Shown piece after piece: positions 33,664 to 50,729 of a stretch of DNA of 64,000 bases (within the stretch, counting starts at the first letter, position 1; each line of letters opens with the position of its first letter). Under the pieces are notes generated by a model. The model was not told the origin of the DNA. It made no database searches and worked only from the letters and a program-made list of their open reading frames with translations. Location: NCBI RefSeq assembly GCF_014930455.1, contig NZ_JAAIYO010000001.1:682001-746000 (forward strand), given 5' to 3'. The translations under genes were made by a program, and so were the position numbers. Origin of the DNA: Corallococcus soli (GTDB lineage: Bacteria; Myxococcota; Myxococcia; Myxococcales; Myxococcaceae).

Positions 33664-33907
33664 GCGAACCCCCGGTCCTTGAGTGCCCACGCGGGCCGCG
33701 CCTGGGGTGCTCGCCCTGGCCCCGAGGCTCACACCTGAGGATAGGCCTCCAGTCCTCGCGCGGCACCGAACGCCCGGCGCGCCCGGAGGCAGGGGCGGGG
33801 CCTTGGAGGCCCGTCCGCCCTGGCCTTGCATCGCGCGCGGGGCCGGGCAGGGGAGCCTCCACCGGACCGTCTCTTGAAGGCCCCGGGGCGCCTCCCAGAT
33901 TTCCAAC

Positions 33908-34174
33908 ATGGAACTCCTGGTGGTCCCGCTCCAGCCCCGCTTCGAGCAGCTCCTCAGGGAGCAGCTGCGCCGGTTGTCGACGACGATGACGCGCGAGCAA
34001 CTGGTCCAGCTCCGGCTGGAGCAACTGTATGACTGGGAGCGGGTGGAGGACCCCGTCACCCGCCGCTTCTTCCGCGCCTCCACCCTGGCGTGGACCCGTG
34101 AGGAATTGAAGGCGCTCGTCGAGGCCACCGTCCGCGAATACCTGCCCGAACAGGAGCGGGAGGAGGTCCACTGA
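33908..34174 (+). CDS. PLD operon gene 1: small helical protein
   Basis: The 88-residue, charged, all-helical soluble protein has segments FEQLLREQLRRLSTTMTREQ and TREELKALVEATVREYLPEQ. No family is recognised. Its TGA overlaps the ATG of the next gene (TGATG), which marks it as the first gene of a tight five-gene operon ending at 36530. It could be an adaptor or an inhibitor of the nuclease-like proteins (inference). Confidence 0.65.
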   Translation: MELLVVPLQPRFEQLLREQLRRLSTTMTREQLVQLRLEQLYDWERVEDPVTRRFFRASTLAWTREELKALVEATVREYLPEQEREEVH

Positions 34175-34377
34175 TGGGCTATCCCAACCTCGGGAATTAC
34201 GCGGACATGCTCCACCTGGATCCGGAGTTCGACCCCAATGCCCTGCCAGGCGACGGCGCGTCCATCGACCTGTTCGACTTCGGCGACCCCTACGCGCCCT
34301 CCAGCCCGGAGGACCAGGCCCGGCTGGACTTCGAACGGATGCTCCAACTGCTGCTCGATGAAGCGGGCAGCATGTAG
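34174..34377 (+). CDS. PLD operon gene 2: small acidic protein
   Basis: The 67-residue protein is strongly acidic (DPEFDPNALPGDGASIDLFD, then a short helix ending LLLDEAGSM). The composition is DNA-mimic-like, and such acidic proteins sometimes neutralise nucleases; this is speculation from composition only. It is translationally coupled to gene 1. Confidence 0.6.
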   Translation: MGYPNLGNYADMLHLDPEFDPNALPGDGASIDLFDFGDPYAPSSPEDQARLDFERMLQLLLDEAGSM

Positions 34378-34391
34378 CGAGGACGCCGCCC

Positions 34392-34685
34392 ATGCCCATG
34401 CCCCCCGGATACGAACGGCTGGAAGCCATCGAGGACCTGCTGGAGGAGCACCGCCTGCTCATCCACGAACAGCTCGCGACGCTCTCCTGGCAGGAGGTGG
34501 CGCTGCTCTTCCAGGCCGAACAGGAGGCGAAGGCGAAGACGCCGTCGGAGAAGGAGGCGGCGCCGCGGGTCTCCCTGGCGCTGGCGGAGTACCAGGACTT
34601 CACGCGCCGGCTGCTCCTCACCTACCGCCACTATGAGCAGGGATTGCGGGAGCGGCTGGCGACCCTGACGCCGGAGGCGCCATGA
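34392..34685 (+). CDS. PLD operon gene 3: small helical protein
   Basis: The 97-residue helical protein has two charged helices (ERLEAIEDLLEEHRLLIHEQ and YRHYEQGLRERLATL) around a Lys/Glu/Ala-rich linker. No family is recognised. Its stop overlaps the start of the PLD protein (ATGA), suggesting equal expression with it. Confidence 0.6.
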   Translation: MPMPPGYERLEAIEDLLEEHRLLIHEQLATLSWQEVALLFQAEQEAKAKTPSEKEAAPRVSLALAEYQDFTRRLLLTYRHYEQGLRERLATLTPEAP

Positions 34686-35206
34686 ACTTCGAGGCCTTCC
34701 CCGTGTCCGGAGGCACGCTGCTCCACGACGGGGACTACGCCCCCTTCGCGGCCAGCTGGTTCGCGCTGGCGCGCAAGCGGCTCTGGGTGTCTGTCTTCAT
34801 CATCGACACGCGGGTGCTGAGGGATCCGCTGCGGTCGGTGCGCGGCCTGGTGGAGCAGCTGGCCCGGGCGCGGTGGCGCAACGTGGACGTGCGAGTGCTG
34901 GTGGGGGTGTCGGACACGCCGGAGGTCCACATCGCCAACACCACCTCCGCGCTCCACATGCGGGAGCTGGGCGTGCCGGTGCGGCTGTTCCACTCCGAGC
35001 GCCACGTGAGCACCCACAGCAAGTTCGTCATCGTGGACGACCGGGTGCTGCTGGGCAGTCACAACTGGACGCACTCCGCCTTCCACGTGAGCCATGAGGA
35101 CTCCCTGGCGGTGAACTCGCCGCAGCTCGCGATGGGGCTGGGGCGGGACTTCGAGCGGCTCTGGGCCGAGGGTGCGCGGAAAGCGGAGGCGGCCCATGCG
35201 TCCTGA
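34682..35206 (+). CDS. PLD operon gene 4: single-HKD phospholipase-D-fold protein
   Basis: The 174-residue protein has one HKD motif, HSKFVIVDD (His112, Lys114), followed by LLGSHNWTHSAF, the conserved G-S-x-N of the PLD superfamily. With one motif per chain it must dimerise to form an active site, like the bacterial endonuclease Nuc. Nuclease or phosphodiesterase activity is the likely chemistry. It has no signal peptide, so it acts in the cytoplasm. It overlaps the next gene, also a PLD protein, by 11 bases. Confidence 0.85.
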   Translation: MNFEAFPVSGGTLLHDGDYAPFAASWFALARKRLWVSVFIIDTRVLRDPLRSVRGLVEQLARARWRNVDVRVLVGVSDTPEVHIANTTSALHMRELGVPVRLFHSERHVSTHSKFVIVDDRVLLGSHNWTHSAFHVSHEDSLAVNSPQLAMGLGRDFERLWAEGARKAEAAHAS

Positions 35207-36530
35207 GTGGTTCGCGCCGATGGTGCGTGGCTGGTCGGAGCAGGTGCGGTGGGAGCCGGACGAGCTGGAGCGGGCCACCGGGCTGCTGGTGGAGCTCAGC
35301 CGGGCGCAGGGCGGGGCGCTGGTCCTGGATGAGGCGCCCGGCGAGGACGTCGCGCGCCAGTTCGCCCTGCGCCGGGCCCGGGAGGTGCTGCAACGGCGGA
35401 TGAACCGCTACGCCCGCGCGCTGGAGGAAGGCGCCGGGTCCGCCCGCTACAGCAGGCCCGTGCGCGAGGAGTCGGACACACCAGCGCTGCCCTTCGTGAC
35501 GCCGCACGAGTGGGCGGACGCCCTGGAGGTGAACACGGCCAGCGCGGAGGAGCTGGAGGGGCTGCCGGGCCTGGGGCGGGTGCTGGCGGAGCGCATCGTG
35601 AGACACCGCCGCGCGCACGGCCCCTTCCGCACGCTGGAGTCGCTGCTGCGGGTGGAGGGCCTGGGCGTGAAGGGGCTGGAGCAGCTCCGCGGGCGGATCC
35701 TCCTGGAGGAGCGCCCGCCGGTGTTCCGGAGCGAGGCGCTGGAGGCGTTCGTCCAGGAGCCCTCCTTCGCCCGGTACGTGCAATGGGTGGCCGCCAGCGG
35801 AGGTTCGTTCCAGTGGCGCCGCGCGCAGGGACAGGGCCCGGTGGCCCAGGTGCTGATGGAGCTGGAGGAGGCCCTGCGGGATGCGCGGGAGCACCCCTAC
35901 GGTGTCGCACGGCGGCTGGGGGCCACGCGGGCGAGCGCGGCGCGGACCGAACAGGAGCGGTTGGATGGGGCCCGTACCCACGCCGAGGACGCCTCCGGCA
36001 CGGTCCGGGCGGGTGTGCTGTTGAGGCAGGGCCAGTACCCGGAGTTCGTGGAGCGCCTGCTCTCAGGGGCGGCGCGCTCCGTGCGGGTGGTCCTCTTCTT
36101 CTTCCGGTACGTGGATGCGAAATACCCCACGCACGGTCTGCTGCAACAGCTCATCGCGGCGCATGAGCGCGGCGTGGACGTCCAGGTCATCCTGGACCAG
36201 GACGCGAAGGGGGATGTCTATCATTCCCGCGTCATCAACCTGCCGGCCTTCCAGGCGCTGACGGCCCGGAAGGTGCCGGTGCGCTACGACGCGGCGAGCC
36301 GGCTCACGCACTCCAAGCTGGTGCTGGTGGATGGCAGGCACCTGGTGATGGGCAGCCACAACTGGACGTTGAGTTCGTTCACCCGCTACGACGAGACGAG
36401 CCTGTATCTGGACTCGGAGCCGCTGGGCGCGCGGCTCGAAGAGCGCTTCCGGACGCTGTGGACGCAGAAGGCGCAGCGGGAAGTCACGGCCTCCCCCATG
36501 GCAGGTGAGCCCGCGGTGGTCGAACCCTGA
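35196..36530 (+). CDS. PLD operon gene 5: helix-hairpin-helix plus PLD-fold protein
   Basis: ATG 35196 (MRPEWFAPMV) lies inside the end of gene 4. Residues ~115-175 are a ComEA-like helix-hairpin-helix (NTASAEELEGLPGLGRVLAE, VEGLGVKGLEQLRGRI), which normally binds DNA non-specifically. Residues ~270-430 are a PLD fold with HSKLVLVDG (His372, Lys374) and MGSHNWTLSSF. There is only one HKD in the 444 residues, so it could homodimerise or pair with gene 4 to build a composite site. The DNA-binding module next to a PLD catalytic unit argues for a nuclease. The operon ends here. Confidence 0.85.
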   Translation: MRPEWFAPMVRGWSEQVRWEPDELERATGLLVELSRAQGGALVLDEAPGEDVARQFALRRAREVLQRRMNRYARALEEGAGSARYSRPVREESDTPALPFVTPHEWADALEVNTASAEELEGLPGLGRVLAERIVRHRRAHGPFRTLESLLRVEGLGVKGLEQLRGRILLEERPPVFRSEALEAFVQEPSFARYVQWVAASGGSFQWRRAQGQGPVAQVLMELEEALRDAREHPYGVARRLGATRASAARTEQERLDGARTHAEDASGTVRAGVLLRQGQYPEFVERLLSGAARSVRVVLFFFRYVDAKYPTHGLLQQLIAAHERGVDVQVILDQDAKGDVYHSRVINLPAFQALTARKVPVRYDAASRLTHSKLVLVDGRHLVMGSHNWTLSSFTRYDETSLYLDSEPLGARLEERFRTLWTQKAQREVTASPMAGEPAVVEP

Positions 36531-36673
36531 AGCCACTCACTGCCGATGGGCCTGACCCAGGGTGAGGATGGACTCGATTCGTCTCGCTCTGCCGTGTGTT
36601 TGACATTCAAGACACCACCTCCGTATACGCCGCCGGTCGCAGTGGCTCACTTCCAGTGAAACCGGGTGGCTTG

Positions 36674-39600
36674 GTGATTTTGAGATTCGGAAGACTTTCC
36701 GTGGTGCTCGCATGCCTGGTGGGACCTGCCGCCTGTGATGACAGGGGGGCGGAAGAGGGCCCCGAGGATTTCCTGGTCCAGAGGGAGGCCGCGCTCGACG
36801 CAGGGGGCGTGGTGAAGCTGGAGTCGAACGTGTTGAAGGGCACGGTGCGGCTCACCAACGCGAATCCGCAGGTGCTGTCGCTCCTGGCGATGGACTCGGG
36901 GATCCACAGCCCGGGCAGCGTCTCCGTGTCGAGCACGTCCCCCACGGGCTTCAGTGCCAGCACCAGCGGTGTCGTGGTCGTCAACCCCTCGGAGTTCCGC
37001 TTCGAGATGCTGGTTGAAGCAGGCGCCGGAGGCGACCAGGGCGTTGTCTACGACCTCACCGCCAGCCGGGGGACTGCCTTGCCCGTCATGTCCGGGGTGA
37101 CGGTCCGGCCCGTCGCGGTGCAGCCCTCGCCCACGGAGGTCGAGGTCCAGCGCTGCATTGGCGTGGTCCGGTTCCAGTTCGGCAGGGATGCGGCCTGTGA
37201 GTCCCTCGCGACGGCCACGGAGGTCAGGCTCGACGGCGGCTCGGTGCTTCGTGACTGGGGTGCGGGGCTCCACACGGTCTACGTGCCTGGCGGCGCCAGC
37301 CGGACCGCGACGCTCGCCTACAACATCAGCACCCCCACGGGCCCGGTGAGGAGCACGCAGTCCGTGCAGCTCGCGGCTGGCTGCGATGAGATCGTCCGGA
37401 CGTGCATTCATGTGGGGACTCCCACCCCACCGGCGCTCGGAGGTTTGACCGGGGCGTTCGAGATCCACGGGGAGACGGCCTCCTCCAAGAGCCTCCTGTT
37501 CCGTGGGACCGCCGAAGCCCGGACCCTATCCCTGCCCGGCGGCTGGTCTCCCGCGAACAATGTCGGGAGCTGGTGGACGGTGCCAAACCTGTCAGTGGGA
37601 GAATATTCAATGTATGCCATGGCCGACCTGCGCTCGGGCCGGAACTTCACGCAGGTCAGGACGGCCTACTACGCCTTTCCCCTGTCCGTCGTTGAGGGCC
37701 CGCCGATGCCGCTGACACGGCAGGTGAATGGGCAGACACGTCACGCCTACGACATACACCCGGCCTATTTCTACGGCGCCGTTCATCTGGCGGACCCCTT
37801 CATGCGGCAGCATCCGGAGGCCTGGAGCTCCCTTCAGGCGCTCTACTTCGAGGGCGACCACGACAGCAACGGGGATGGCGTGCCAGACTCCCCAGTGATT
37901 GGCAGCAGGGGGACCTATTTCGATACAATCGGCTCGGGCGGTTCCAGCCGCACCGCCTTCCCTGGCGACTTCGATGCGAACCTTGGCGAGCTCGTCTCCA
38001 GCTATGAGCAGGTGCTGCCGGGGCCCTACGACCTGGCCGTTCTCGACTGGGCCCAGCAGGCGCTCATCCTGAGATTCTGGTCCGAGCCGACCGGCAGCGG
38101 CCCCTTCACCACCCGGCCCGGCCTGTACGACCCGGCGCGCTTTCGCTACGGCTCGCTCTCACTGCGCTCCACGATCGACGGTGGTAACAGCGCGGGTCGA
38201 CTCAATCCCGAGCAACGCTACCGCATCAATCACGAGTACTGTTTCAGTGAATTGCAAATCCAATACGCCGCGAGCGCGGGCCGCTTCTTCAATCCCTATG
38301 TGAAAGTGACTGGAAGCTACTCCGGCAAGGACTGGCGCAACCAGCCGGCGGCCTACGCGGTGATGTCAGGCGTCGCGTATGGGACGCCCGCGGTCTGGAA
38401 CACCCCGAACCCCGCCTCATACGCGCAGACGGGCGGGCAGATCTCCCTGGCGCTCCCGCAGGGAACCTTCAACCTCCAGCCCGGTGCCTTCATGGTGGGT
38501 GATTCGGGAGCGGTGAACGACGCCAGCTTCTCTCCCATCGGGGTGACGGTGGGCTGCGGACAGCGGCTCAAGCTGGTGCCCCCGCTGGCCGTGAGTCTGG
38601 CCTCCCTGGCGGGTTGCGCCGCCTCGGAATCCAAGCAGGTCTCCGGACAGGTGAAGAGCCGGCCCGCGGAGGTGGACCGCGTCTGGTATCGCCTCAACGG
38701 TGGTCCGGAGGTCACGCTCTGCACCGACTGTGGCTTTGATCCGACCTTCTCCTTCAACGTACCGCTCCAGACCTGCGACAACAGCATCCAGGTCTTCGCC
38801 TTCACGGAAGGGATGAGCGAGCCCGCGAGCTCCGTCGAACAGCTTGTCTGGGATGACCCGATGGATGGCCCGAGCTGCCCAGGCTCCTTCTGTGTCAATC
38901 GGCCTCCAGTGGCCCGCTGCAAGGGCGCCATCGTTCCGGCCGACAGCGCATGCAGCGGGTGTGGCGCGGTGAACGACGGCTCCTTCGACCCGGATCCGGG
39001 GGACACGGTGACCTGCGTGCAGACCCCCGCATGTCCGTACCCGCTGGGCTCGCACACCGCGACGCTGACGTGCACGGACAGCAGGGGGCTCACCTCGTCG
39101 TGCACGTCCACGGTGACGGTGCGGGACGAAACACCGCCCACCCTCGTCTGCCCCGTCCCCATCGTCGTCGAGGGCACGGGTCCGGAGGGCGCCACGGTGA
39201 CGCCCGGCGTGGCCACCGCGGGGGATGCCTGCGGGCCGCCCCTGGTCTCGGGCCCCGTGGCCGGCACCTACCCGGTGGGCACCACGCCGGTGACGTACAC
39301 CGCCACGGACGTCGGAAGGAATCAGACCTCCTGCGTCTCCACCATCCAGGTCACGGAGCCTCCGCCGCAGGAGGTGATGAACGTCACCCTGTGCAACCTG
39401 CCGCGCTACACGCGGGAGACGGCCCTCATGGCCTGCGGTTGGACCACGCCCCGTCCCGGAGGCGCGCCTGTCACGCACGTCTCCTTCCAGGTGGATGGTG
39501 GAGCGCCAGCGCCCGTGACACCGGACCTCAGCGGAGGCTTCGTCATCACCTGGCTCAACCTGGAGGAGGGCACCCATGTCGTCGAGCTGACCGCCACCGA

Positions 39601-39940
39601 CGCGAAGGGTGCTGTCACGCGCAAGCAGACGACGGTGACGGTGGACCTCTCGCCCCCCGTGCTCGCGATCCTCTCCCCGCTCGGTGACGAGACGCTCTCC
39701 AGCCCGGTGGTGACCGTGACCTCCTCCGTCCAGGACGCCACGCCCACGCGCGTGACGACCCAGTGGCTGGAGACGGGCATGGTGGACAGCGGTACGGGCA
39801 CGGTCACCCACACGGTGGACCTGATCAACCGCGGCTCCGTTCCGCTGCTGGTGGCCGCCACGGACGCGGCGGGAAACACCACGCAGCTCGTGATGCACAT
39901 CCACGTCGGGCCCGCTCAAGGGTTGCTGTTCACGCAATAA
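36674..39940 (+). CDS. Large lipoprotein with C-terminal HYR domains
   Basis: The product is about 1088 residues. GTG 36674 begins a lipoprotein signal with lipobox GPAAC; a longer ATG start at 36596 would place this signal internally. The first ~700 residues are beta-rich with no named domain. From ~740 there are two HYR-type modules (PPVARC, FDPDPGDTVTC, TLTCTDSRGLTSSC; then DETPPTLVCP, YPVGTTPVTYTATD), and the end has cadherin/Ig-like strands. HYR domains occur in adhesive extracellular proteins. The 37500-38500 part looks less GC-biased at third positions than neighbouring genes. Confidence 0.75.
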   Translation: MILRFGRLSVVLACLVGPAACDDRGAEEGPEDFLVQREAALDAGGVVKLESNVLKGTVRLTNANPQVLSLLAMDSGIHSPGSVSVSSTSPTGFSASTSGVVVVNPSEFRFEMLVEAGAGGDQGVVYDLTASRGTALPVMSGVTVRPVAVQPSPTEVEVQRCIGVVRFQFGRDAACESLATATEVRLDGGSVLRDWGAGLHTVYVPGGASRTATLAYNISTPTGPVRSTQSVQLAAGCDEIVRTCIHVGTPTPPALGGLTGAFEIHGETASSKSLLFRGTAEARTLSLPGGWSPANNVGSWWTVPNLSVGEYSMYAMADLRSGRNFTQVRTAYYAFPLSVVEGPPMPLTRQVNGQTRHAYDIHPAYFYGAVHLADPFMRQHPEAWSSLQALYFEGDHDSNGDGVPDSPVIGSRGTYFDTIGSGGSSRTAFPGDFDANLGELVSSYEQVLPGPYDLAVLDWAQQALILRFWSEPTGSGPFTTRPGLYDPARFRYGSLSLRSTIDGGNSAGRLNPEQRYRINHEYCFSELQIQYAASAGRFFNPYVKVTGSYSGKDWRNQPAAYAVMSGVAYGTPAVWNTPNPASYAQTGGQISLALPQGTFNLQPGAFMVGDSGAVNDASFSPIGVTVGCGQRLKLVPPLAVSLASLAGCAASESKQVSGQVKSRPAEVDRVWYRLNGGPEVTLCTDCGFDPTFSFNVPLQTCDNSIQVFAFTEGMSEPASSVEQLVWDDPMDGPSCPGSFCVNRPPVARCKGAIVPADSACSGCGAVNDGSFDPDPGDTVTCVQTPACPYPLGSHTATLTCTDSRGLTSSCTSTVTVRDETPPTLVCPVPIVVEGTGPEGATVTPGVATAGDACGPPLVSGPVAGTYPVGTTPVTYTATDVGRNQTSCVSTIQVTEPPPQEVMNVTLCNLPRYTRETALMACGWTTPRPGGAPVTHVSFQVDGGAPAPVTPDLSGGFVITWLNLEEGTHVVELTATDAKGAVTRKQTTVTVDLSPPVLAILSPLGDETLSSPVVTVTSSVQDATPTRVTTQWLETGMVDSGTGTVTHTVDLINRGSVPLLVAATDAAGNTTQLVMHIHVGPAQGLLFTQ

Positions 39941-40038
39941 GCGCCCGCGCGCGGTCCCTGGTAAGCTTGTATTCCATGAAATGCTGTTCCATGGCAGGCT
40001 GGCGCCGTGTGATTCCCTCTCACGGAAGGTCCTGCTGG

Positions 40039-41124
40039 ATGAACATGCTTCGTGCGACACGATGGGGGTTGGCGGTGTGTGGCCTGGGCCTGTGGGCTGC
40101 TTGCGGCGAGCCGGAGCCCGCGCCAGCTCCTGACACGGCTCCTGTTGTCGCGGCGGAGGGCCCTGGAGGCGTTCGCGCGGCCGGCGCCACGGGGCTGCTC
40201 CCTGCCTGGGGCGCCCCGCTGTGGCAGGACGAGTTCGACGGCACCGACCTGAAGCCGTGGTGGTACAAGATGCCGCACACCTACGCGGCGGGGAACAGCG
40301 AGTCGCAGTGGTACCGACCGGAGAACCTGGAGGTCTCGGCGGGGACGCTGAAGATCCACTCCCGGCGCCAGGACTACCTCGGGTCCACGACCCAGGCGCC
40401 TGCGATGCCCTTCACCAGCCCGGATGGCATCAACCGGGCCACGCCCAGGACGGGCCTCCCCGCGGGCAAGCGCTACTTCACCTCCGGGATGATCAACACC
40501 CGCGAGGGCAACCCGGCCACGTACTTCCCGCTCTATGGCAAGTATGAGATTCGCGCCCGGCTGCCGCATGGGCAGGGCCTGCTGCCCGCCTTCTGGTTGC
40601 GTCGCAAGGGCGGGGCCTCCTCCGGGGAGGTCGACGTCATGGAGTACTTCTTCAACTACCGGCCGGGACGCGGGAAGTTCTCGCTGCACTTCCCCAACAC
40701 GCTCGGGGTGAACACGACGCAGCAACTGGTGACGTTCGAGCCCGCCGCGCCGGGGACTGGCGGCTGGCACACCTGGTCGGTGGAGATCACCCCGGCGGGC
40801 GACCCGCTCACCGGCCCCATCGACTTCAAGGCGTTCCTGGACGGGGTCCAGTACGGCGGCTACCAGCTGACCGATGCGGCGACCCTGGCGATGCTGCGTC
40901 AGCCGGGCGCGAACTCGACCTGGGACATCTGTCTGAACACGGCCGTCGGCGGCAAGTGGGTGGGCGAACCGGATCAGCAACTGGGCTACCTCCCCATGGT
41001 CCACCGCTGCTCGCGGACGCAGGCCGCCCCGGGCACCACCGGCTGCGCCACCACCGACCTGTTCTTCGTGTCGCTGCCCGCGGTGTTTGAAATCGACTAC
41101 GTCCGCGTCTACTCCCTGCCCTGA
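40039..41124 (+). CDS. GH16-family glycoside hydrolase lipoprotein
   Basis: The 361-residue protein has a lipoprotein signal (WAACG lipobox) and a concanavalin-fold catalytic domain from ~60. The GH16 active-site motif reads GEVDVMEYF, with Glu197 nucleophile, Asp199 and Glu202 acid/base, all present. Other landmarks are WQDEFDG, YGKYEIRARLPHGQGLLPAF and FEIDYVRVYS. The family hydrolyses beta-1,3/1,4-glucans, agar or related polymers; laminarinase-like activity against fungal or algal walls is plausible. GGAAGGT lies about nine bases before ATG 40039. Confidence 0.9.
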   Translation: MNMLRATRWGLAVCGLGLWAACGEPEPAPAPDTAPVVAAEGPGGVRAAGATGLLPAWGAPLWQDEFDGTDLKPWWYKMPHTYAAGNSESQWYRPENLEVSAGTLKIHSRRQDYLGSTTQAPAMPFTSPDGINRATPRTGLPAGKRYFTSGMINTREGNPATYFPLYGKYEIRARLPHGQGLLPAFWLRRKGGASSGEVDVMEYFFNYRPGRGKFSLHFPNTLGVNTTQQLVTFEPAAPGTGGWHTWSVEITPAGDPLTGPIDFKAFLDGVQYGGYQLTDAATLAMLRQPGANSTWDICLNTAVGGKWVGEPDQQLGYLPMVHRCSRTQAAPGTTGCATTDLFFVSLPAVFEIDYVRVYSLP

Positions 41125-41154
41125 GCAGGCTTGGGGAGGACAGCGGGCCTCTGG

Positions 41155-44100
41155 TCAGCCTACCCAGTGGACGAAAGCCTTGAGTGACCAGATACGGCCG
41201 AAGCTCGAAGCAGAGCTTCTGTCTGCTTGCTGGTCTGCGGATTGGAGTGCGTGGAGCGCCAGGGATGGGTCCTGATCCCCGGCCAATGCATCGAGGACGG
41301 CATTCCCTACCTGGAATGCCGTTCCCAACCGCACGTCCCAGAGGGGGGCTATGATGCGCCGGGCACCGCTTGCCAGGAATGCGCCGGCCAGTCCTGCGGC
41401 ACGGTGAAGCCAGCTGCCCACTTGTCCCGTCTCGCACGAGAGAAGCACAACGGTGGCGCCCGCGATGCGCCGGGGATCCGCACCCACCTGCTCCAGTGCC
41501 AGCTCCGAGTCTGAGCCTGTCTCGTCGAGGAGCTGGAGCGTTGCCTTGCGAGGACCCTCGACCCCTCCATGGCAGAGGATCACGACTACGTCCGCCTCCG
41601 CGAGCTCGCGCAGGACATCCTGTGCCGATGCCGGTCGCTCCACGATCCCAGGGCATGTCAGTTTGAGCGCCGTCCCGAACTTCGACCCCTGACTCAGTAG
41701 CGCGCGTGGTTTTCCGGAAGCGGCCACGCGCTGTGCCAGATGCGCGCCGAGCTTGACCGCACTTTTAAGGTCCCCCCGGCGGCCGGGGCCGGGATCGGCG
41801 ACCGCGATGAGTGTGCATCGGGGACGCTCCGGAAAGGGGCGCGCCTCCAAAGCGAGCCTCGTTCCCAGGGAGACAGGCGTGGAGGGCCAGAGATCCACCG
41901 GCGCCAGCAAGCGCAGCGGTCCTGCGGGAATCCAGAGCAGGTGCGTGGGGGCAGGTGGAAGCAGGAACTGAAGGGATGGAAGCAGGTGCGTCCGGGCCCA
42001 GGCCAGGAGGTCCCGGTAGGGTTGCCCGCCCTCATCCACACCCATCGCCTGGGCCACCGCGCGCTCTTCCACGGGGATCGCGTCGACCCGGAGTTCCGCC
42101 ACCATCACCCGAGGCTGCTCCGGGCTTTCGAGGGCCACTACCATCGTTCCCAGGCTTCCGCTGACAAGTGCAACAGCGGCCGAGCCGGGCCGTGACCTCA
42201 ACCAGTTCCACGTCCCGGACAGGTCTGGCTCTCCGCGAAGGAAGGAGGGCTCGGTGAGGCGCACCTTTTCCAAGGCCCGCGCCACGCCGCCAGGCGTTCC
42301 TCCGCGAAGAGCCTCAAGCCATTCCACCCAGTCCCCGGAGGGAACTCGGGCGGGACGGGACATTCTGCCCGCCAGGGTGCGTTGGAACGCGCCCGATGCC
42401 CGCGCAAGCCAGCGAAGGACGCGCTCCGCCGAGTCTCCGGTCAGCACGAAGGAGAGCCCTGCGCTGCCGCTGGCGCTCTGCTCGTTCAGCGCGCGGGCCA
42501 GCACGGTCCCTACGTCGGCGGTGACCTGGGCCTCTTCAAATGCCGATGCCTCGTCCACCAGCAGGAAGGGCCGGGCTTCATCGAGCGCGACCCAGGCGCG
42601 CTCGGCGGTGGGCTCAATGTGCCTGGGCTCTTGAGTCAGGAGGGAGAGCCGGAGCAGCCCGAGGGCGGATTGGGCGAGCCGCTCGCCTTTCCCCCATCGC
42701 CGGGCCGCCGCGATAGCGCTGTCGAGCGCTTGCGCTCCGCGAACCCACAGCTCATGGGGCCAGGGGTCGGAATCGGGCCGGCATTCCAGGACCCGCACTA
42801 TGGCCTGCCCCATTTCATCGGTGGTCTCCCAATGGAATCCGGGATGGGCCTCCAGTGTCCGGATCTGAAGCACCTGTTCGCACAGCAGCAATCCCGCGAT
42901 GACGGCCTTCGTTTCCATGCTTCCCGTGTGGCGGTCCGGCGCCATCAGGTGCAGGGCGAAGTTGTGGGCGGTCATTGCCCAGTTGAAAGGCTGGGCCTCT
43001 CGGTCCTGTCCCTCCAGACGCTGGCTCCACAGCCCAATGGCCTCGGCGCGCCGCCCTGCTCGGACGGCGATCTCCGCGAGGCAGAGGGCCTGGAAGTTCT
43101 CCACCGAAAACCGTCGCAGTTCGGGGACATCCTCCCATGGCATCGACTCGAAGTGCGTCCGCGCTTCGGCAAGCAGCGCGTCACCCTCAGGAGAGCGGCG
43201 TCGCGAGCCCAGGCGCGTGAGTTCCACCGCGAGGTTGCCCTTCGCGAGCACCTGCTCCGAGGAACCGCGAGCCACCGAGACGCGTGCGCGCGCGGCCTTG
43301 AGGCCCTCATCGTATTCGGGCTCGCTGCCTCCTGTGCGAAGCTCCGCCCGGACCTCCGCGAGGTTCGTGCGCATGATGGCTTCGCCGTCCTCCATACCCA
43401 GGTGCTCGTAGTGGCGAAGACATTCCTCGTAGAGCTTGGCGGCCTCGCGCAGGTGGGCATCCCGGTCCCCGTCCGTCCGGTAGCGCGTCGCTCGTGCGAA
43501 GCATTGCAGCGCATCCAGGGAAACGGCTGGGCTCACCGCAGGGTCGTCGAGCACCTCGCGACACAGCCGCGCTGCCCGGGAGAAATCCGCGATGGGGTGG
43601 TCATGGACATCCAAGGGCGTCCAGACGCGAACCAGCTCCAGGATGAGGAAGTGGCGTGCCTCCGGACTGGAAATGGCCCGGCTCAGACGCTCGGCTTCCT
43701 CAATGGTGGACAACGTTTCCTGAACGCTCGCATGTCCCAAACCCGCGAGGTGCGTGAGCAGCTTCGCGCGTGCCGCGCAGAGCCCTGGGCGCTCCTCGGC
43801 GTCGGTGACGTGAAGCAATCGCTCCGCGCGTGCCCGCAGGGAAGAAGGTGTTCGTTCTTCCGGCGGTGACTCCTGGGCCAGGATGGCTTGGGCCAGTGGG
43901 CTGGAGGGATCCAGCGACAGTTCAGCGATGAGGTCCTTCGCCCGCTTCAATGGGTGCGTTTCCCGGACATAGGCGGCGACTGCTGGTTGCTGGACGGAGG
44001 CGACTCCGATGCGCATCCACTCCTCCGGAACGGGTCCTTTCTGGCCACGCTTCGCGCGGGCGGCCTTCTCTGCCAACCTCGGGTGGAGCCGACCAAGCTC

Positions 44101-46497
44101 ATCGAGCCGCCGGTGGAGCGACCCATCTCGCCGCCGATGGGGAATGAGCTGAGCCATGAGGCTGATCAATTGATCGGCCAAGGCCAGCCGGTTCCGCTCA
44201 TCTCCGCAGCGCAACGCCTCCTCGAGCCGGGCGATGGCACGCGTCAGGCGCTCCTCGTCCGGACGCTCCGGCTGCTCAAGTTCCGCCTGGGCGGCGGACA
44301 CGAGGGTCTCGGCTTCGTAAGGGCCCCCTTCCCGGAGCTTGAGGGCATGCTCCAACAACCGCAGGGCCTGCACGGCATCGCCCGGGGCGAGGCGCAAGAG
44401 CAGGGCATCCGCGGTGACCTTCGAGAGCCTCGCGGCTTCAAGCGGATTGGGGGCTCCCAGACTCCGAGCCTGCTCGTAGAGGCCCAGGGCGCGCTCGACC
44501 TCGGGTGCGGGACCCTCCCGGAAGGCGTTGCCCGTGGTGATGAGGAGGGCGAAGAGGAGGGGATCTGGAATCTGGACGCGGGTGATCTCTTCCATGGCCT
44601 TGAGGAGGATCTGGCGTGCCTCCTCCAGGATGTGTTCGCGGCGTCCTTCCAGGGGATGAAGCACCTGAAGCGCGTTCAGTCGTTCGACGCCCTTGAAGAA
44701 GCCTGCTTCGAGCCGTTCCTCAGGGGTGCGCGCTGCGGCGAGGAGCGCATTCGCGGCGTGCGAATAGGGCGTTTCCTCTCCCCACGCCCTGGTCTGGGCG
44801 AGAAGCTGCACCCTCAGACGCAACAAGGAGAAGCTCGGCTCGCGAGCCACCGCACGCTCCACGCGTTCAAGCAGGCGGGGGCCCACTGCCCCCACCGGCC
44901 CAAGCGCCGCGAGGAGGGCTAGAAGCTCGCGGCCCGTCATGGAGGCGCGAAGCATGATTTCGAGCAGCCAGTCCAGACACTCCTCCGCGCGATCCGGACG
45001 GGCCGTCATGAGATGGGGCAGGAACGTCAGCTCTTGCTCATCGAAAGAAATGGCCTTGGAAGGAGGCCGTCCCTGGGCAAGCTCGACCACCCACGCGGGC
45101 ACCTCATCGAAGGGACCCCGCCGGTCACCCATGGAATCCGGCGAAGCCGTGTCACTGGCAGCTTGGCTTCGCTGACGGACCCACCGAAGGCGCGACTGGA
45201 TTGCTTGCGTTTCCGCAGAGTCAGTCGCACCGCAAAGCAATCGCTCGGCGATGGTGAGGGCTCGCGGAAGCGTGAGCGGTCCTGGATGGAGCAGGATGGA
45301 TGCGGCCTCCCTCCGATGGCGGTCCAATTCCTCTTCAGGAAGAGGCAGGGCCTGCTCGAACCAGAGCGCCAGGGCGATCTGCTCAGGCGTGGACATGGCG
45401 GCGCCGGAGGCAAGCTGCGACATGCGGATCGACGCGAGGACCCGTGCGTTGACCTCTCTCGCGGAGGCGCTGCTGGCCAGGACCTCCGCCGCATGCTCTG
45501 CGTGACGCCAAGCCCGGTCCAGTACCTTCCGCTCGCCCCTCGCGCTCTTCCAAAGCGCCGCTGCCAGGTCCGAACGCATCGATGGATCGTCATCCTCGCC
45601 CACCAACAGCCGCTCCACCACGTCGCAGACCTGGAGGCGCTCGTCGTGGGCCTGCTCGTCGAGGAGGGCCATCAACAGCCCCGCGGTCCGCAGCTGCTCG
45701 GAGTGGGTCGTATCCTTCGGCAGCTTCCGCCGTAGCAGCTCCAGCGCTTCGCTCGCACGTCCCTCGCTGGCGAGGAGTCGCGCACGGACAATGGGCTTGA
45801 TGCGTAGGCGGTTCGTTCCGTCCAGCAGTTCACTGCGGAGGTCTCCGGGAAGCTGCTCCGCTTGGTTCATCAGGAGGATGGCAAGCTGCTGCTCCAGGGG
45901 GACATTGAGCTGCAGGGTGTCCTGGGCATAGCTCCTCATCACGTCGAGCACCTCCTCCGCCAAGCGTCCGCCGTTACGCTCGGGCCCCAAGCGCAGCAAC
46001 AGCAGGAGTTTCTCGAAAGGAGTGCCTACCACTTCCCGTTCCGCAGACCGCAGGCGTTCGGGCCAGCGTCGGACATCGCCGGACAGCTCTTCCAGTTCGG
46101 CCAGACGCACCGATGCCAATGCAAGGTGTCCCGGGAGGCCCACCGCCCGCGCATCCTCAATGGCTCGTGTGAGCTGGGCAGCCGCATCGCCGTGACGCTC
46201 AAGGCAGGCATATGCGGTAGCCAACGTCATGCGGGTCTGAATGCGCGATTGGCTGGGGGCGTCGGGCGCGAGCAGCCCCAGGGCCTCTTCCAGATGCCCC
46301 ACGGCAGCAGCACCGTCTTCCGATTCCAACAGGGCCTGACCGAGCACGTCATGCGCGCGGGCGCGCTCCCCCGGGAGGGCACCCGCCGGCTGCTCCTGGA
46401 GCGCCTCTCGCGCCAACTGGACGGCTTGCGCTGGCATCCGCTTGCCCAGGAGCCCTTCTGCGAGGTCCAACTTCCTCGTCGTTCCGGCGTCCGTCAT
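41155..46497 (-). CDS. TPR-CHAT caspase-like protease, 1780 aa
   Basis: Most of the protein is an array of TPR/helical repeats (~1-1400; e.g. LPGERARAHDVLGQALLESEDGAAA). The C-terminal ~350 residues form a CHAT peptidase domain: VVILCHGGVEG gives the catalytic His1643, VVLLSCETGQVG gives the catalytic Cys1688, and FLASGARRIIAPLWDV follows. Both residues are intact. TPR-CHAT proteins are activated by a bound partner, as in the type III CRISPR Craspase. GGGGGAG lies just before the ATG. It is the last gene of the CHAT/MBL/CHAT operon, 89 bases below the MBL gene. No nucleotide-binding motif was found. Confidence 0.9.
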   Translation of the reverse strand: MTDAGTTRKLDLAEGLLGKRMPAQAVQLAREALQEQPAGALPGERARAHDVLGQALLESEDGAAAVGHLEEALGLLAPDAPSQSRIQTRMTLATAYACLERHGDAAAQLTRAIEDARAVGLPGHLALASVRLAELEELSGDVRRWPERLRSAEREVVGTPFEKLLLLLRLGPERNGGRLAEEVLDVMRSYAQDTLQLNVPLEQQLAILLMNQAEQLPGDLRSELLDGTNRLRIKPIVRARLLASEGRASEALELLRRKLPKDTTHSEQLRTAGLLMALLDEQAHDERLQVCDVVERLLVGEDDDPSMRSDLAAALWKSARGERKVLDRAWRHAEHAAEVLASSASAREVNARVLASIRMSQLASGAAMSTPEQIALALWFEQALPLPEEELDRHRREAASILLHPGPLTLPRALTIAERLLCGATDSAETQAIQSRLRWVRQRSQAASDTASPDSMGDRRGPFDEVPAWVVELAQGRPPSKAISFDEQELTFLPHLMTARPDRAEECLDWLLEIMLRASMTGRELLALLAALGPVGAVGPRLLERVERAVAREPSFSLLRLRVQLLAQTRAWGEETPYSHAANALLAAARTPEERLEAGFFKGVERLNALQVLHPLEGRREHILEEARQILLKAMEEITRVQIPDPLLFALLITTGNAFREGPAPEVERALGLYEQARSLGAPNPLEAARLSKVTADALLLRLAPGDAVQALRLLEHALKLREGGPYEAETLVSAAQAELEQPERPDEERLTRAIARLEEALRCGDERNRLALADQLISLMAQLIPHRRRDGSLHRRLDELGRLHPRLAEKAARAKRGQKGPVPEEWMRIGVASVQQPAVAAYVRETHPLKRAKDLIAELSLDPSSPLAQAILAQESPPEERTPSSLRARAERLLHVTDAEERPGLCAARAKLLTHLAGLGHASVQETLSTIEEAERLSRAISSPEARHFLILELVRVWTPLDVHDHPIADFSRAARLCREVLDDPAVSPAVSLDALQCFARATRYRTDGDRDAHLREAAKLYEECLRHYEHLGMEDGEAIMRTNLAEVRAELRTGGSEPEYDEGLKAARARVSVARGSSEQVLAKGNLAVELTRLGSRRRSPEGDALLAEARTHFESMPWEDVPELRRFSVENFQALCLAEIAVRAGRRAEAIGLWSQRLEGQDREAQPFNWAMTAHNFALHLMAPDRHTGSMETKAVIAGLLLCEQVLQIRTLEAHPGFHWETTDEMGQAIVRVLECRPDSDPWPHELWVRGAQALDSAIAAARRWGKGERLAQSALGLLRLSLLTQEPRHIEPTAERAWVALDEARPFLLVDEASAFEEAQVTADVGTVLARALNEQSASGSAGLSFVLTGDSAERVLRWLARASGAFQRTLAGRMSRPARVPSGDWVEWLEALRGGTPGGVARALEKVRLTEPSFLRGEPDLSGTWNWLRSRPGSAAVALVSGSLGTMVVALESPEQPRVMVAELRVDAIPVEERAVAQAMGVDEGGQPYRDLLAWARTHLLPSLQFLLPPAPTHLLWIPAGPLRLLAPVDLWPSTPVSLGTRLALEARPFPERPRCTLIAVADPGPGRRGDLKSAVKLGAHLAQRVAASGKPRALLSQGSKFGTALKLTCPGIVERPASAQDVLRELAEADVVVILCHGGVEGPRKATLQLLDETGSDSELALEQVGADPRRIAGATVVLLSCETGQVGSWLHRAAGLAGAFLASGARRIIAPLWDVRLGTAFQVGNAVLDALAGDQDPSLALHALQSADQQADRSSASSFGRIWSLKAFVHWVG

Positions 46498-46586
46498 GTG
46501 CTCCCCCGGTGCTGCGATTGGCGCCGCCAGATTCCCGTGGCGTGCGCGCGCGTGTCAGGAAGTCGCGTGGGTTCGCGAAGAACCGT

Positions 46587-47690
46587 TCAGCCCCAGGTGA
46601 GCACCCGCGACCCGCCTTCCGAGGCAGGGTAGGTGGTGGTGAAGCCATGGCGGACCTGAAGGCTCTCGGACTTCCACTGTGAAGCGGGGACCGACGCGGT
46701 GTTGAAGTGCAGTCGGACCCCGCGCTTCGCGGAGACGATGCGCGCGATTGCCTGGGCATCCGGATGTCGGAAGCGCGTGCCGTCCGTAGAGATGAGGAAG
46801 TCGCTGCACTCCACCAGGTCGAGCCATTCGCGCGTGACATTGCGCTTACTGCCATGGTGGGGAAGCTTGACCGCGCTCAAAGGCAGCCGGGACAGCCCCC
46901 GCTCCTGGAGCAGCCGCTGAAGTGTCGCCGCAAGGACTTGGGGCCAGGCATCCGCGGCCAGCAAACACGCATGGGGGCCACACTCGGCGAGCAGCGCGAT
47001 GCTGCTGCCATTGGCGGGGGCATCGTCACGCTGCTGGGGCTCCGCAGACAGTGCACCCACGTCCAAGGTTCCTCCCAGACGATCCGCCTGTTCCTGGGTC
47101 GCCATGTGGGGGCGGGACAACTCCTCTTCCACGGACCGGACTTCCCTGGCCCAGACGAGCGCCATCCTCCGGAGCGCGGTCGGCGTGGGTGACAGCACCG
47201 TCAGCGATAACCCATTGCGCAGCTCGATGCGTGGCAATGCACCCGTATCCGGCACGACAATGGGACCCCGGCGAAAGGCTTCATTCCAGCGCCCGCCCCG
47301 GATGATTGTCGCCAGCGCTTCACCCTGTCCGGGTCCGAGCCGGTCCTCTGGGGGGACTTCCGGCCCTGCACTGCCTCCCTCCGCGCCCGTGGCTTCCGCC
47401 AGGAAGGACTTCATGTGGTGCTGGCCGTTGAACCAGAGGTCGTCATAGGTGGTGCCGACCGCAGGGTCCCGGAGCAGCTCCAGGATGCCGCCGATGTGGT
47501 CCGCATCGACATGGGTGACGACGATCAGGTCGAAGTGCGGCCGCGCGTCGCGAGAAAGCCGTGCGCGCAGGGCCGGATACGACGCGGGGGTGCCGCCATC
47601 AATGAGGATGCGCTGGGTACGTCCCTCATGCACGTGCTCCAGGAGCAAACAGTCACCGCACCCCGCTGGCAGCATCTCCAGTGTCAGCAT
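46587..47690 (-). CDS. Metallo-beta-lactamase-fold hydrolase, ComEC/Rec2-type
   Basis: The 367-residue soluble protein has metal-binding motif THVDADHIGG (His60, Asp62, Asp64, His65), the HxDxDH form found in ComEC-type MBL domains. LIDGGTPASY precedes it, and VKLPHHGSKRNVT and LISTDGTRFRHPDAQA follow as later metal ligands or active-site loops. The ATG at 47690 has GGGAGG at good spacing and lies 38 bases inside the end of the upstream CHAT gene. Likely a cytoplasmic nuclease or phosphodiesterase, given known ComEC MBL activity; it is the best effector candidate of the operon (inference). Confidence 0.88.
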   Translation of the reverse strand: MLTLEMLPAGCGDCLLLEHVHEGRTQRILIDGGTPASYPALRARLSRDARPHFDLIVVTHVDADHIGGILELLRDPAVGTTYDDLWFNGQHHMKSFLAEATGAEGGSAGPEVPPEDRLGPGQGEALATIIRGGRWNEAFRRGPIVVPDTGALPRIELRNGLSLTVLSPTPTALRRMALVWAREVRSVEEELSRPHMATQEQADRLGGTLDVGALSAEPQQRDDAPANGSSIALLAECGPHACLLAADAWPQVLAATLQRLLQERGLSRLPLSAVKLPHHGSKRNVTREWLDLVECSDFLISTDGTRFRHPDAQAIARIVSAKRGVRLHFNTASVPASQWKSESLQVRHGFTTTYPASEGGSRVLTWG

Positions 47691-50625
47691 CAATGTTCCC
47701 TCCCAGGCTTGTTGGCGCATCCAGATACCAGTCCACGTCACCGTAGACGGCAAGCCCGAGCATGAGCGGATCTCCTCCGGAGAGGAGTGTGCGCCGCAAG
47801 CGGACAAACGCGTCTCCCACGCTCACCTCCCCCTGCCGCACCATCGCTTCCAGCCCTGCGAGCATCGCGGCGGTCGTGGGGCCAGCGTGCCGCCCCAGCA
47901 TGTCCGCCATGCTGCTGACCACCACGGCGGAGCCCTGCCCGGCCCAGAGGAACTGGTTCACCACATTCTGGAATCTCACCGTGGGCAGCAGGGGACTGCA
48001 ACCCATCAGCAGGACGAGGACCCCGTCGCCGGAATTCACTTTTCTCACATGACGTTCATGAAGACGCGAGACGCCGAGCGCATCGGAGGCGATTTCGATG
48101 GTCTGCACATCCGTGCCCTCTTCCTGATCTGTGTGGACCAGGAGCACCAGGAGGGAGGGCGCATCCCGCTGGATGGCCCTAGCCCACTGCTTCCATTCCT
48201 TCACTTCCGTGGTGCAGGCGGGCCACAGCTTCTCGAGGGTGTGCCTCACCCGGTCCATGCTGGTGGCGTCGTTGAGGTCCACGCGATGACTGGCCCCGAC
48301 GAGGCCTCGAAGCAGCAGCGGGATGGTTCGCCGTTCCTTCCGGGGCATGACCCTCAACCCGACACCTCCTGCCCGTACCCCGGAAGGAACGCGCTGCCGC
48401 TCCAGGATACGGGTGAGTCCCCAGAAACCAGCGGGGCAAACGAAATCCTCAGCCTCCTCCTCATCCTGGTGGGAGGAGTGATGACACTCGCCCGTTTCCA
48501 GCGCCAGCTGGGCGTTGGGACACAGCCTCGCCTTGGGGTGCGGCGCGGGGAGGTCATAGAAGAACTCCACGGGAATGAAGCTTCCCACCGAGGTCTCGAG
48601 GATCTGGATCCGCCTTCCACGAAGCAAGCTCCGGCCTACGCCGGGCCGCGACACCGCTGCCCTCCAGAAGAGGCTCCCCTGGTTGGCCAGGGCTACGAGA
48701 AGCTTCACGAGCCGCTCATCCTCCAACGAAGTGGGACGCACTGGCTCCTGGGTCAGCTGCTGCAGGCGGGTGCGAATCTGGAGAATGGCTTCCTTCAGAT
48801 CCGGCTGATCGATGTCGAACCAGTGGATTTCCTCGTCCTCCACGACCATGGCATGCGCGCCACCCGAGGCGTCCTCCTGGATCACGAGCGCGGCGTCGAA
48901 GGGCGTGCGTTCCTCCAGCGGTTCGTCCAGGGCGAGGGGAGGGAATTCCAACTCCTGCTTCACACCACGACCCATGTCGGGGCGTGCCTCGCGTGTCGTC
49001 ACGACCGGGGCGGAGAGAATCGCCGTTTGGATGACCCGGTTGCGGTGAAGGACGGTGATGCGCGCGGAAAAGTCTCTTGCTGCGAATGCCCCAGGAGCTG
49101 GCTTTGGCACGGTAAACGCGAAAGCGCAGCGGGTACTATCTCCCTTAGACCCCAGGACAACGTGCTCGGCTCGCGGTGGGGCCTGTTGGCTGGTGAAATC
49201 ATCCGAGAAGACGATGGTGAGCGTGTGGCCATCGGGAGAAGGCGGCAGGCTGGCCTCGGGGAGCGGCTTCCTGACGAAGCGCGAGCCAGCGCGCACCGCA
49301 CCGATGTGGACCTCCAACCGGTAGGTGTGGCCGGCCAGGAGTGCCCCAAGCTCCTGCTCAGGCTTCGGCCCTTCCGTGGAGAGGATGGTTGCTTGCAGAT
49401 GACGGCCCGGCGGCTTCTGTGAGGGCTGTTGCTGCATGGCCCAGGGGGGGGGCGTCTGGAGATTCTGGGACAGCGCCACGTCCAGGGACTTCTCCGCCGT
49501 TCGTACGGCCTGGCGAAGCTGCGAGAGCGCGACGCCCGCGCCGGGCGGGAGCTTGAACCCGGGCTGGGACAGGCGCTGCTGGAGGGCCGTCGCCAGCTCC
49601 GGGGCGGTCCACTCCCTCTGCTCCCATCCCAACGTGCGCGCCAGGAACTCCGGGACCTGGAGGTCCATCAAGTCGAAGCGGGTCCGCAGCGGCGCCACGA
49701 ATTCAAGCAGCCTGCGGGCTGCGTCCACTTCCTCCCGGAGGGGCAGCTTCGCGCCGTCGAGGAACTTCCATGACGAAAGCAAGAAGGGGGCGGCGCCCGT
49801 CCCGGTTGCCAGCCGCACCGCTTCATCGAAGGGAATGCCTTCCCCCAGCGCGGCCATGAGCGCGAACCAGAACTCCCCGCGTCGCTTGAGGGGCGCACGT
49901 ACCACCAGCACGGCGCCGGTGTCTAGCCGGTAGCGGAGCTTGAGGCCCAGCGCCATCGCGGCGGCGGCGCTCTTGCTTTCGGGAAGAAAGGCGATAGCGA
50001 TCGCGCTGGCAGGCAGCACTCCCGCCTCGTGTCCCGGCGCGCCTGGCACGAAGCAGACATCGGGGGGCACCAGGAGGATGTGTCCGGCGGCGTTGTGCTC
50101 CAGGGAACTCCAGAGTGCCGGTGCCTTCCCTGGCAGGTTGCCCTCTCCCAGCCGCTGGATGTGTCTCCGCTCCGAACGCACGGCGACGACGGACAGTGGC
50201 CACGAGAGCGCGCGCTGCTGGCGTGGCTCACCCGAGCGGACATGGACCGATGCCGCGCCCACGGACGCGTCCGCGAGCAGCTCCGCGAATAGGGCGAGCA
50301 CCGGCGGATCCTCGTCTTCGTGCACGATTTCAATGCGCGGAGGGCCCCCCTCCGACAGCAGTTGTGCCCAGAGCGTGGCCAGCTGCTCGGCCTGTTCGAA
50401 GCCGCCAAGCCGCAGGTGCTCCAGGATTGTGCGGTCGTGAGAGGAGAACCCGAAACGGATCCGTCTCCCTGCGAAGAGGGCCTTCAGCGAGGCGACCTCT
50501 TCCCACCTGCGCGTGTCGAGCCCGAGCTTTGGATGCGCGGCCAGCGCTCCCAGCATGGCAATGGCCGGAGCCTGGACCTCGCGTCGCAGGGGCTGGATGA
50601 AACGTCTAAAGAAGCGGATGTCCAC
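47653..50625 (-). CDS. CHAT-domain protease with large N-terminal region, ~990 aa
   Basis: The C-terminal ~280 residues form a CHAT domain. LLVLLVHTDQEEG contains the catalytic His831 and VLVLLMGCSPLL the catalytic Cys876; FLWAGQGSAVVVSSMADM and the ending YGDVDWYLD are typical. The N-terminal ~700 residues are alpha/beta and Ig-like with no family recognised. The frame opens at GTG 50724, only five bases from a divergent start. GTG 50625 has GAGAAGG eight bases upstream and leaves a normal intergenic region, so it is preferred. It is the first gene of the operon, and its end overlaps the MBL gene by 38 bases. Confidence 0.85.
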   Translation of the reverse strand: MDIRFFRRFIQPLRREVQAPAIAMLGALAAHPKLGLDTRRWEEVASLKALFAGRRIRFGFSSHDRTILEHLRLGGFEQAEQLATLWAQLLSEGGPPRIEIVHEDEDPPVLALFAELLADASVGAASVHVRSGEPRQQRALSWPLSVVAVRSERRHIQRLGEGNLPGKAPALWSSLEHNAAGHILLVPPDVCFVPGAPGHEAGVLPASAIAIAFLPESKSAAAAMALGLKLRYRLDTGAVLVVRAPLKRRGEFWFALMAALGEGIPFDEAVRLATGTGAAPFLLSSWKFLDGAKLPLREEVDAARRLLEFVAPLRTRFDLMDLQVPEFLARTLGWEQREWTAPELATALQQRLSQPGFKLPPGAGVALSQLRQAVRTAEKSLDVALSQNLQTPPPWAMQQQPSQKPPGRHLQATILSTEGPKPEQELGALLAGHTYRLEVHIGAVRAGSRFVRKPLPEASLPPSPDGHTLTIVFSDDFTSQQAPPRAEHVVLGSKGDSTRCAFAFTVPKPAPGAFAARDFSARITVLHRNRVIQTAILSAPVVTTREARPDMGRGVKQELEFPPLALDEPLEERTPFDAALVIQEDASGGAHAMVVEDEEIHWFDIDQPDLKEAILQIRTRLQQLTQEPVRPTSLEDERLVKLLVALANQGSLFWRAAVSRPGVGRSLLRGRRIQILETSVGSFIPVEFFYDLPAPHPKARLCPNAQLALETGECHHSSHQDEEEAEDFVCPAGFWGLTRILERQRVPSGVRAGGVGLRVMPRKERRTIPLLLRGLVGASHRVDLNDATSMDRVRHTLEKLWPACTTEVKEWKQWARAIQRDAPSLLVLLVHTDQEEGTDVQTIEIASDALGVSRLHERHVRKVNSGDGVLVLLMGCSPLLPTVRFQNVVNQFLWAGQGSAVVVSSMADMLGRHAGPTTAAMLAGLEAMVRQGEVSVGDAFVRLRRTLLSGGDPLMLGLAVYGDVDWYLDAPTSLGGNIDADTGDAASGVR

Positions 50626-50729
50626 GCTGCGGACCTTCTCCTGGCCAGGGGCTGCACTGGCCGTCCCAAAGAGCACTCGAGCGCCGAGGATGACAAGCGT
50701 ACCCGAACCCTTCGGAGTAGACACAGGGC
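50626..50729. promoter_or_regulatory. Presumed divergent promoter region of the CHAT operon and the zinc-ribbon gene
   Basis: If the CHAT gene starts at 50625, these ~104 bases are the only non-coding DNA between the two divergent units and must hold both promoters. No consensus -35/-10 or sigma-54 box was recognised in it. Confidence 0.4.

Follow-up and report, generated by a model that had tools for sequence, protein, structure and literature searches.

PLD nucleases with a single HKD motif, such as NucT and Nuc, dimerise and thereby form a twinned active site, and those known are homodimers (PMC5714352). HKD DNases are furthermore recurrent defence effectors (PMC12839542). PLD nuclease modules as such are known; what is new here is a real, compact, and narrowly distributed gene set, apparently undescribed, in which two single-HKD PLD proteins (P1 and P2) are encoded together with three small proteins (S1, S2, and S3) unlike those described.

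The set lies in the window (the whole stretch of 64,000 nucleotides of Corallococcus soli DNA that was analysed) at positions 33908-36530 on the forward strand, in the order S1-S2-S3-P1-P2 and with its ORFs where the initial annotation had placed them. It forms a compact unit of 2.7 kb, hereafter the cassette, and has five carriers: the window genome, C. praedator CA031B, C. sicarius CA040B, C. terminator CA054A, and Corallococcus sp. CA053C. The features are the following.

33838..33907, + strand: conserved upstream block, GGCCGGGCAGGGnnGCC ... GTCTCTTGA; left edge of the conserved unit, kept in 5/5 genomes
33908..34174, + strand: S1, 88 aa; without family match, best conserved among the small proteins
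34174..34377, + strand: S2, 67 aa; acidic, pI 4.05, net charge -12
34392..34685, + strand: S3, 97 aa; predicted antiparallel two-helix hairpin (pLDDT 89)
34682..35206, + strand: P1, 174 aa; single-HKD PLD domain (PLDc_2)
35015..35065, + strand: HKD signature of P1, residues 112-128 (motif comparison, five genomes)
35196..36530, + strand: P2, 444 aa; helical N-terminal region, ComEA/Tex-type HhH, helical linker, and single-HKD PLD domain
35523..35699, + strand: HHH_3 domain of P2, residues 110-168 (Pfam E=1.4e-19; ComEA and Tex structures)
36309..36362, + strand: HKD signature of P2, residues 372-389 (motif comparison, five genomes)

The start/stop overlaps from which the initial annotation had deduced a coupling of the genes are indeed there. 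S1 and S2 share one base (TGATG, spacing -1), S3 and P1 overlap by four bases (ATGA, spacing -4), and P1 and P2 by 11 (spacing -11); S2 and S3 are separated by a 14 bp gap (+14) with no overlap. The spacing in the four relatives is near-identical (-1, +12/14, -4, -11), and since it is thus kept in 5/5 genomes the coupling is not due to chance. A search for conserved gene order of the small proteins with the PLD pair likewise returned the same order in all five carriers. The start of P2 is the ATG at 35196; a GTG further upstream (35172) is not conserved in every genome. All five genes would be read from a single transcript, and the block at 33838..33907 is the probable promoter/operator of the cassette. 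The DNA further 5' of this block is unrelated between subclades. A genome-wide site search found one exact copy in its own genome, and in the corresponding regulon search near-matches were not commoner than in the reversed control. Scans for sigma-70 promoters, terminators, and Rfam families found none.

Both large products carry one HKD motif each, as had been read from the sequence, and the two signatures are intact and invariant in 5/5 genomes: H112-K114-D119-G125-S126-N128 plus E139 in P1, and H372-K374-D379-G386-S387-N389 plus E400 in P2. With one HxK(x)4D...GSxN per chain, both belong to the single-HKD PLD superfamily (PF13091). The PLDc_2 domain covers residues 30-161 of P1 (Pfam E=5e-19, 68.9 bits vs a cut-off of 27) and residues 287-422 of P2 (E=1e-22, 80.4 bits vs 27), in one stretch each. 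The ComEA-like helix-hairpin-helix that had been noticed in one of the two proteins corresponds to HHH_3, which Pfam places in P2 and not in P1; two further regions of P2 have no Pfam family. The AlphaFold model of P2, built from five close sequences, was too poor for a fold search (pLDDT 44). Among solved structures in the PDB, P2 matches ComEA, Tex, Nuc, and NucT, and P1 matches PLD3/4, Nuc, and, best of all, mitochondrial cardiolipin hydrolase (PLD6/Zucchini). This last match, together with the span of PLD folds over lipid, RNA, and DNA substrates, speaks for P1 and P2 acting on RNA or phospholipids instead of DNA. We nevertheless regard this as quite improbable, given the ComEA/Tex-type HhH in P2 and the fact that Pfam recognises no membrane domain. 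The HhH proteins ComEA and Tex are nucleic-acid binders, an analogy that suggests binding of double-stranded DNA by P2.

As to how the two chains are arranged, P1 and P2 are non-identical, always occur together, and retain both motifs intact, which is best read as a composite enzyme; they probably do form one nuclease. Apart from P1 itself, it is the P2 chains that the P1 profile matches best within Myxococcota, which fits a duplication of a homodimer gene, and the tree of PLD domains built to examine this duplication has long branches. Alternatively, P1 and P2 could each be homodimers that have just an operon in common, an arrangement compatible with any proposed cellular role. The complete HKD signature in each chain and the homodimeric nature of the known single-HKD nucleases agree with this, and the possibility of P1:P1 and P2:P2 homodimers counts against our preferred explanation. 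Nonetheless, the two genes are always paired, are never found apart, and conserve their 11-bp overlap, making separate homodimers somewhat unlikely in our view.

The small ORFs S1-S3 are real genes according to their dN/dS values and codon-position pattern across the five genomes. The ratios (NG86, five genomes) amount to 0.17-0.37 for S1, 0.08-0.9 for S2 (which is short and has a 9-residue deletion in one subclade), 0.24-0.51 for S3, 0.15-0.65 for P1, and 0.28-0.56 for P2. They are probably overestimates, since the codon bias of a GC-rich genome reduces dS, and being below 1 for all five genes they point to purifying selection; third codon positions are the most frequent site of substitution in every gene. 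S1-S3 have no convincing match in Pfam, NCBIfam, PADLOC, or PHROGs, and a fold search with the predicted S3 model returned generic coiled-coil hairpins only, none with E <0.001. The 67-aa protein is acidic, as had been said of it, and S2 further has a conserved N-terminus (M.YPNLGN.AD) and an IDLFDFG motif. It is a candidate acidic inhibitor or DNA mimic of P1/P2, whereas S1 and S3 may serve as helical adaptors or sensors.

That the small proteins are encoded first, with coupled translation, suits the control of a dangerous nuclease. The same layout, with small acidic proteins encoded 5' of a nuclease and translationally coupled to it, could also be that of a toxin-antitoxin-like or kin-competition module, in which P1/P2 is a self-toxic nuclease, at least one of S1, S2, and S3 is the antidote, and the purpose is the module's own maintenance or rivalry among siblings. 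Presence or absence of the cassette as a whole unit agrees with such a module, and there is a precedent in the nuclease toxin/immunity pairs of Myxococcus (PMC12077131, PMC6091211). Three candidate antidotes would be unusual, though, Pfam reveals no secretion or delivery domain, and no phage or plasmid copies were found. We thus deem this explanation improbable.

The cassette is distributed far more narrowly than a widespread system, namely over five species of one genus. P1 and P2 are present in 5/16 Corallococcus genomes and the cassette is absent from the other 11. Profile searches of about 195 Myxococcota genomes (P2 at E 1e-25; permissive E for S1, S3, and the two P2 regions without a family) gave strong matches for S1, S3, P2, and likewise P1 only in the five carriers, and no genome in this set holds a partial block. 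The initial annotation had asked whether the small genes are lacking elsewhere and whether the PLD genes occur singly; instead, the small genes are kept wherever the PLD genes occur, and neither P1 nor P2 stands alone. Outside the carriers, S1, S3, and P2 domains have weak matches (E 0.05 to 3e-5) that were dismissed as apparent chance hits; the best of these (L115) covers just a small part of an ORF of 280 aa that is unrelated. When P2 was used in a pattern-based scan of 84,980 species genomes, the four named Corallococcus alone were returned, although remote relatives may escape it because the patterns were drawn from the P2 N-terminus. Phage, viral, and plasmid records contain no relative of the whole block but generic PLD or HhH matches only, none of which covers 80% of P2; P1 has no match in phages, S1 and S3 have none in plasmids, and P1, P2, and S3 have none in viral contigs. 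The open-access literature searched holds no description of the gene set. The earlier remark that no described system has this composition is therefore supported, as no match to the make-up of any described system was found.

The edges of the cassette are sharp. Aligned with the window, the two more distantly related carriers show a steep increase in identity at about 33838 and a drop at about 36470-36537; the flanking DNA diverges some 70 bp 5' of S1 and close to the stop codon of P2. G007, a close relative, shares the window's left flank up to 33785 and its right flank from 36557, and between them lie 565 bp of unrelated DNA (containing a 98-aa ORF); as G007 has the flanking genes with other DNA in the cassette's place, the block was gained or lost whole. 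The gene at 36596, too, has a relative in G007. On the left, C. terminator and C. praedator match the window's flank through the Abhydrolase_9 gene, but they differ from it on the right, and in C. sicarius and CA053C both flanks are unlike those of the window and partly unlike each other's. A second genome, G015, also lacks the cassette. In the tree of a neighbouring 839-aa core gene (C. sicarius left out), G007 falls into one group with C. terminator, C. praedator, and the window, and G015 forms another with CA053C; the C. sicarius copy is 92% identical to that of G015 and as near to the window's as those of G015 and CA053C. Since G007 and G015 are nested inside the carrier clade, presence of the cassette in the clade ancestor followed by two whole-unit losses is the simplest history. 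Exchange between species is possible, and homologous recombination between flanking genes is then more likely than transposition, as terminal repeats (transposon or integron cassette) are not evident at the block edges. Cassettes of the first subclade are 93.5-95% identical in nucleotide sequence, those of the second 89.5%, and those of different subclades 77-78%, next to 89-94%, 92%, and 82-83% for the core gene; the divergence of the cassette thus follows the host subclades, roughly as vertical descent would predict.

The surroundings vary as well, and the site is a Corallococcus locus in which whole gene sets come and go. The 839-aa protein (50730-53249, + strand), with a Cys-rich N-terminus (CPGC...CPHC) and no Pfam family, is found in 16/16 Corallococcus genomes searched. 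In the window about 14 kb (36596-50724) separate its gene from the cassette, but in C. terminator and C. praedator it lies only 70-170 bp past the cassette, so that the intervening stretch was inserted here or lost there. The same variable stretch contains a 1780-aa ORF (41155-46497, - strand) in whose C-terminal part Pfam recognises a CHAT protease domain (E=4e-11). A protein of about 1,200 aa with many LWxTDGTxxGT-like repeats (L023:3547-7146 and L024:883-4476) is located near the cassette in C. sicarius and adjoins it in CA053C.

This history also bears on the idea that the cassette serves the cell's own metabolism as a DNA repair or recombination endonuclease, in which P1/P2 and the HhH would act on branched or damaged DNA, in analogy to XPF-ERCC1 and UvrC, and S1-S3 would be structural subunits. 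Enzymes of this type do combine a paired nuclease domain with an HhH, and both the purifying selection and a divergence consistent with vertical inheritance within subclades accord with the idea. Yet the cassette is dispensable, being missing from 11 of the 16 Corallococcus genomes, G007 and G015 inside the carrier clade included, and both its HKD sites are intact, whereas one of the two nuclease domains of XPF-ERCC1 is dead. A repair function thus has a low probability in our judgement.

The explanation we prefer is a composite P1/P2 PLD nuclease, tethered by its HhH, regulated by S1-S3, and used in defence; taken in full, it is a possibility that we put forward tentatively. The self-contained cassette would be expressed as one transcript yielding a PLD-type phosphodiesterase/nuclease, in which two different single-HKD chains would together make up the active site, as if a double-HKD enzyme had been divided into two polypeptides. 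The HhH of P2 would keep the complex on double-stranded DNA, and S1-S3, made first and in coupled amounts, would either keep the nuclease from acting or guide it, S2 perhaps as acidic inhibitor or DNA mimic and S1 and S3 as helical adaptors or sensors. Its most likely use would be the cutting of incoming DNA (phage or other mobile DNA). We infer the P1:P2 heteromer, DNA as the substrate, control by the small proteins, and the role in defence, the last from the habits of HKD DNases, the presence or absence of the unit as a whole, and its dispensability. Sharp-edged presence and absence in a variable locus counts in favour. Counting against it, the cassette lacks a partner for the recognition of foreign DNA (helicase, methylase, or ATPase), no known defence genes were recognised among the scanned neighbours, and the block is confined to one genus with a divergence that tracks host subclades, which is slow for a defence gene. 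The strictest version, a previously undescribed defence module whose PLD nuclease is an obligate heterodimer (a double-HKD enzyme divided between two genes), with an HhH DNA tether and three dedicated lineage-specific small controllers, is unlikely. If true, a single-HKD PLD homodimer would have evolved into an enzyme that requires two chains and has small regulators of its own, and these 2.7 kb would offer a compact unit for testing how bacteria avoid self-harm from an HKD nuclease.

The curated families nearest to P1/P2 are DrmC, NucT, cardiolipin synthases, and ComEA, all scoring below their family cut-offs. For this reason, and with the DISARM partners missing, an assignment of the cassette to DISARM, NucT, or ComEA was rejected. 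DrmC of DISARM, the best defence-family match, likewise has a PLD domain and is part of an intracellular defence module, but the scores (47.0 and 42.3 bits vs 133) mark the PADLOC/NCBIfam matches as generic PLD similarity; the helicase DrmA, DrmB, and the methylase have no counterpart in the cassette, S1-S3 belong to no family, and the scanned neighbours are unrelated. Most of the other myxobacterial loci compared (L090-L109) encode a conserved single-HKD PLD protein like mitochondrial cardiolipin hydrolase (HMHHKFAVFD...GSYNWTRSA). It resembles the cassette's PLD proteins in its single-HKD domain with GSxNWT, but the similarity is limited (E ~1e-8 to 1e-12) and its genomes lack the small genes. 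Nuc (pKM101) and NucT (H. pylori) share with P1 and P2 the one HxK(x)4D(x)nGSxN per chain, the PLD domain by profile, and the dimer logic, whereas each is a single gene without HhH or small partner genes, and NucT is exported (best NCBIfam NucT score 31.6 bits vs 297). With the ComEA/Tex HhH proteins, finally, P2 has HHH_3 and nothing else in common (ComEA family TIGR01259, 49.7 bits vs 152), and in P2 this domain is fused to a PLD domain.
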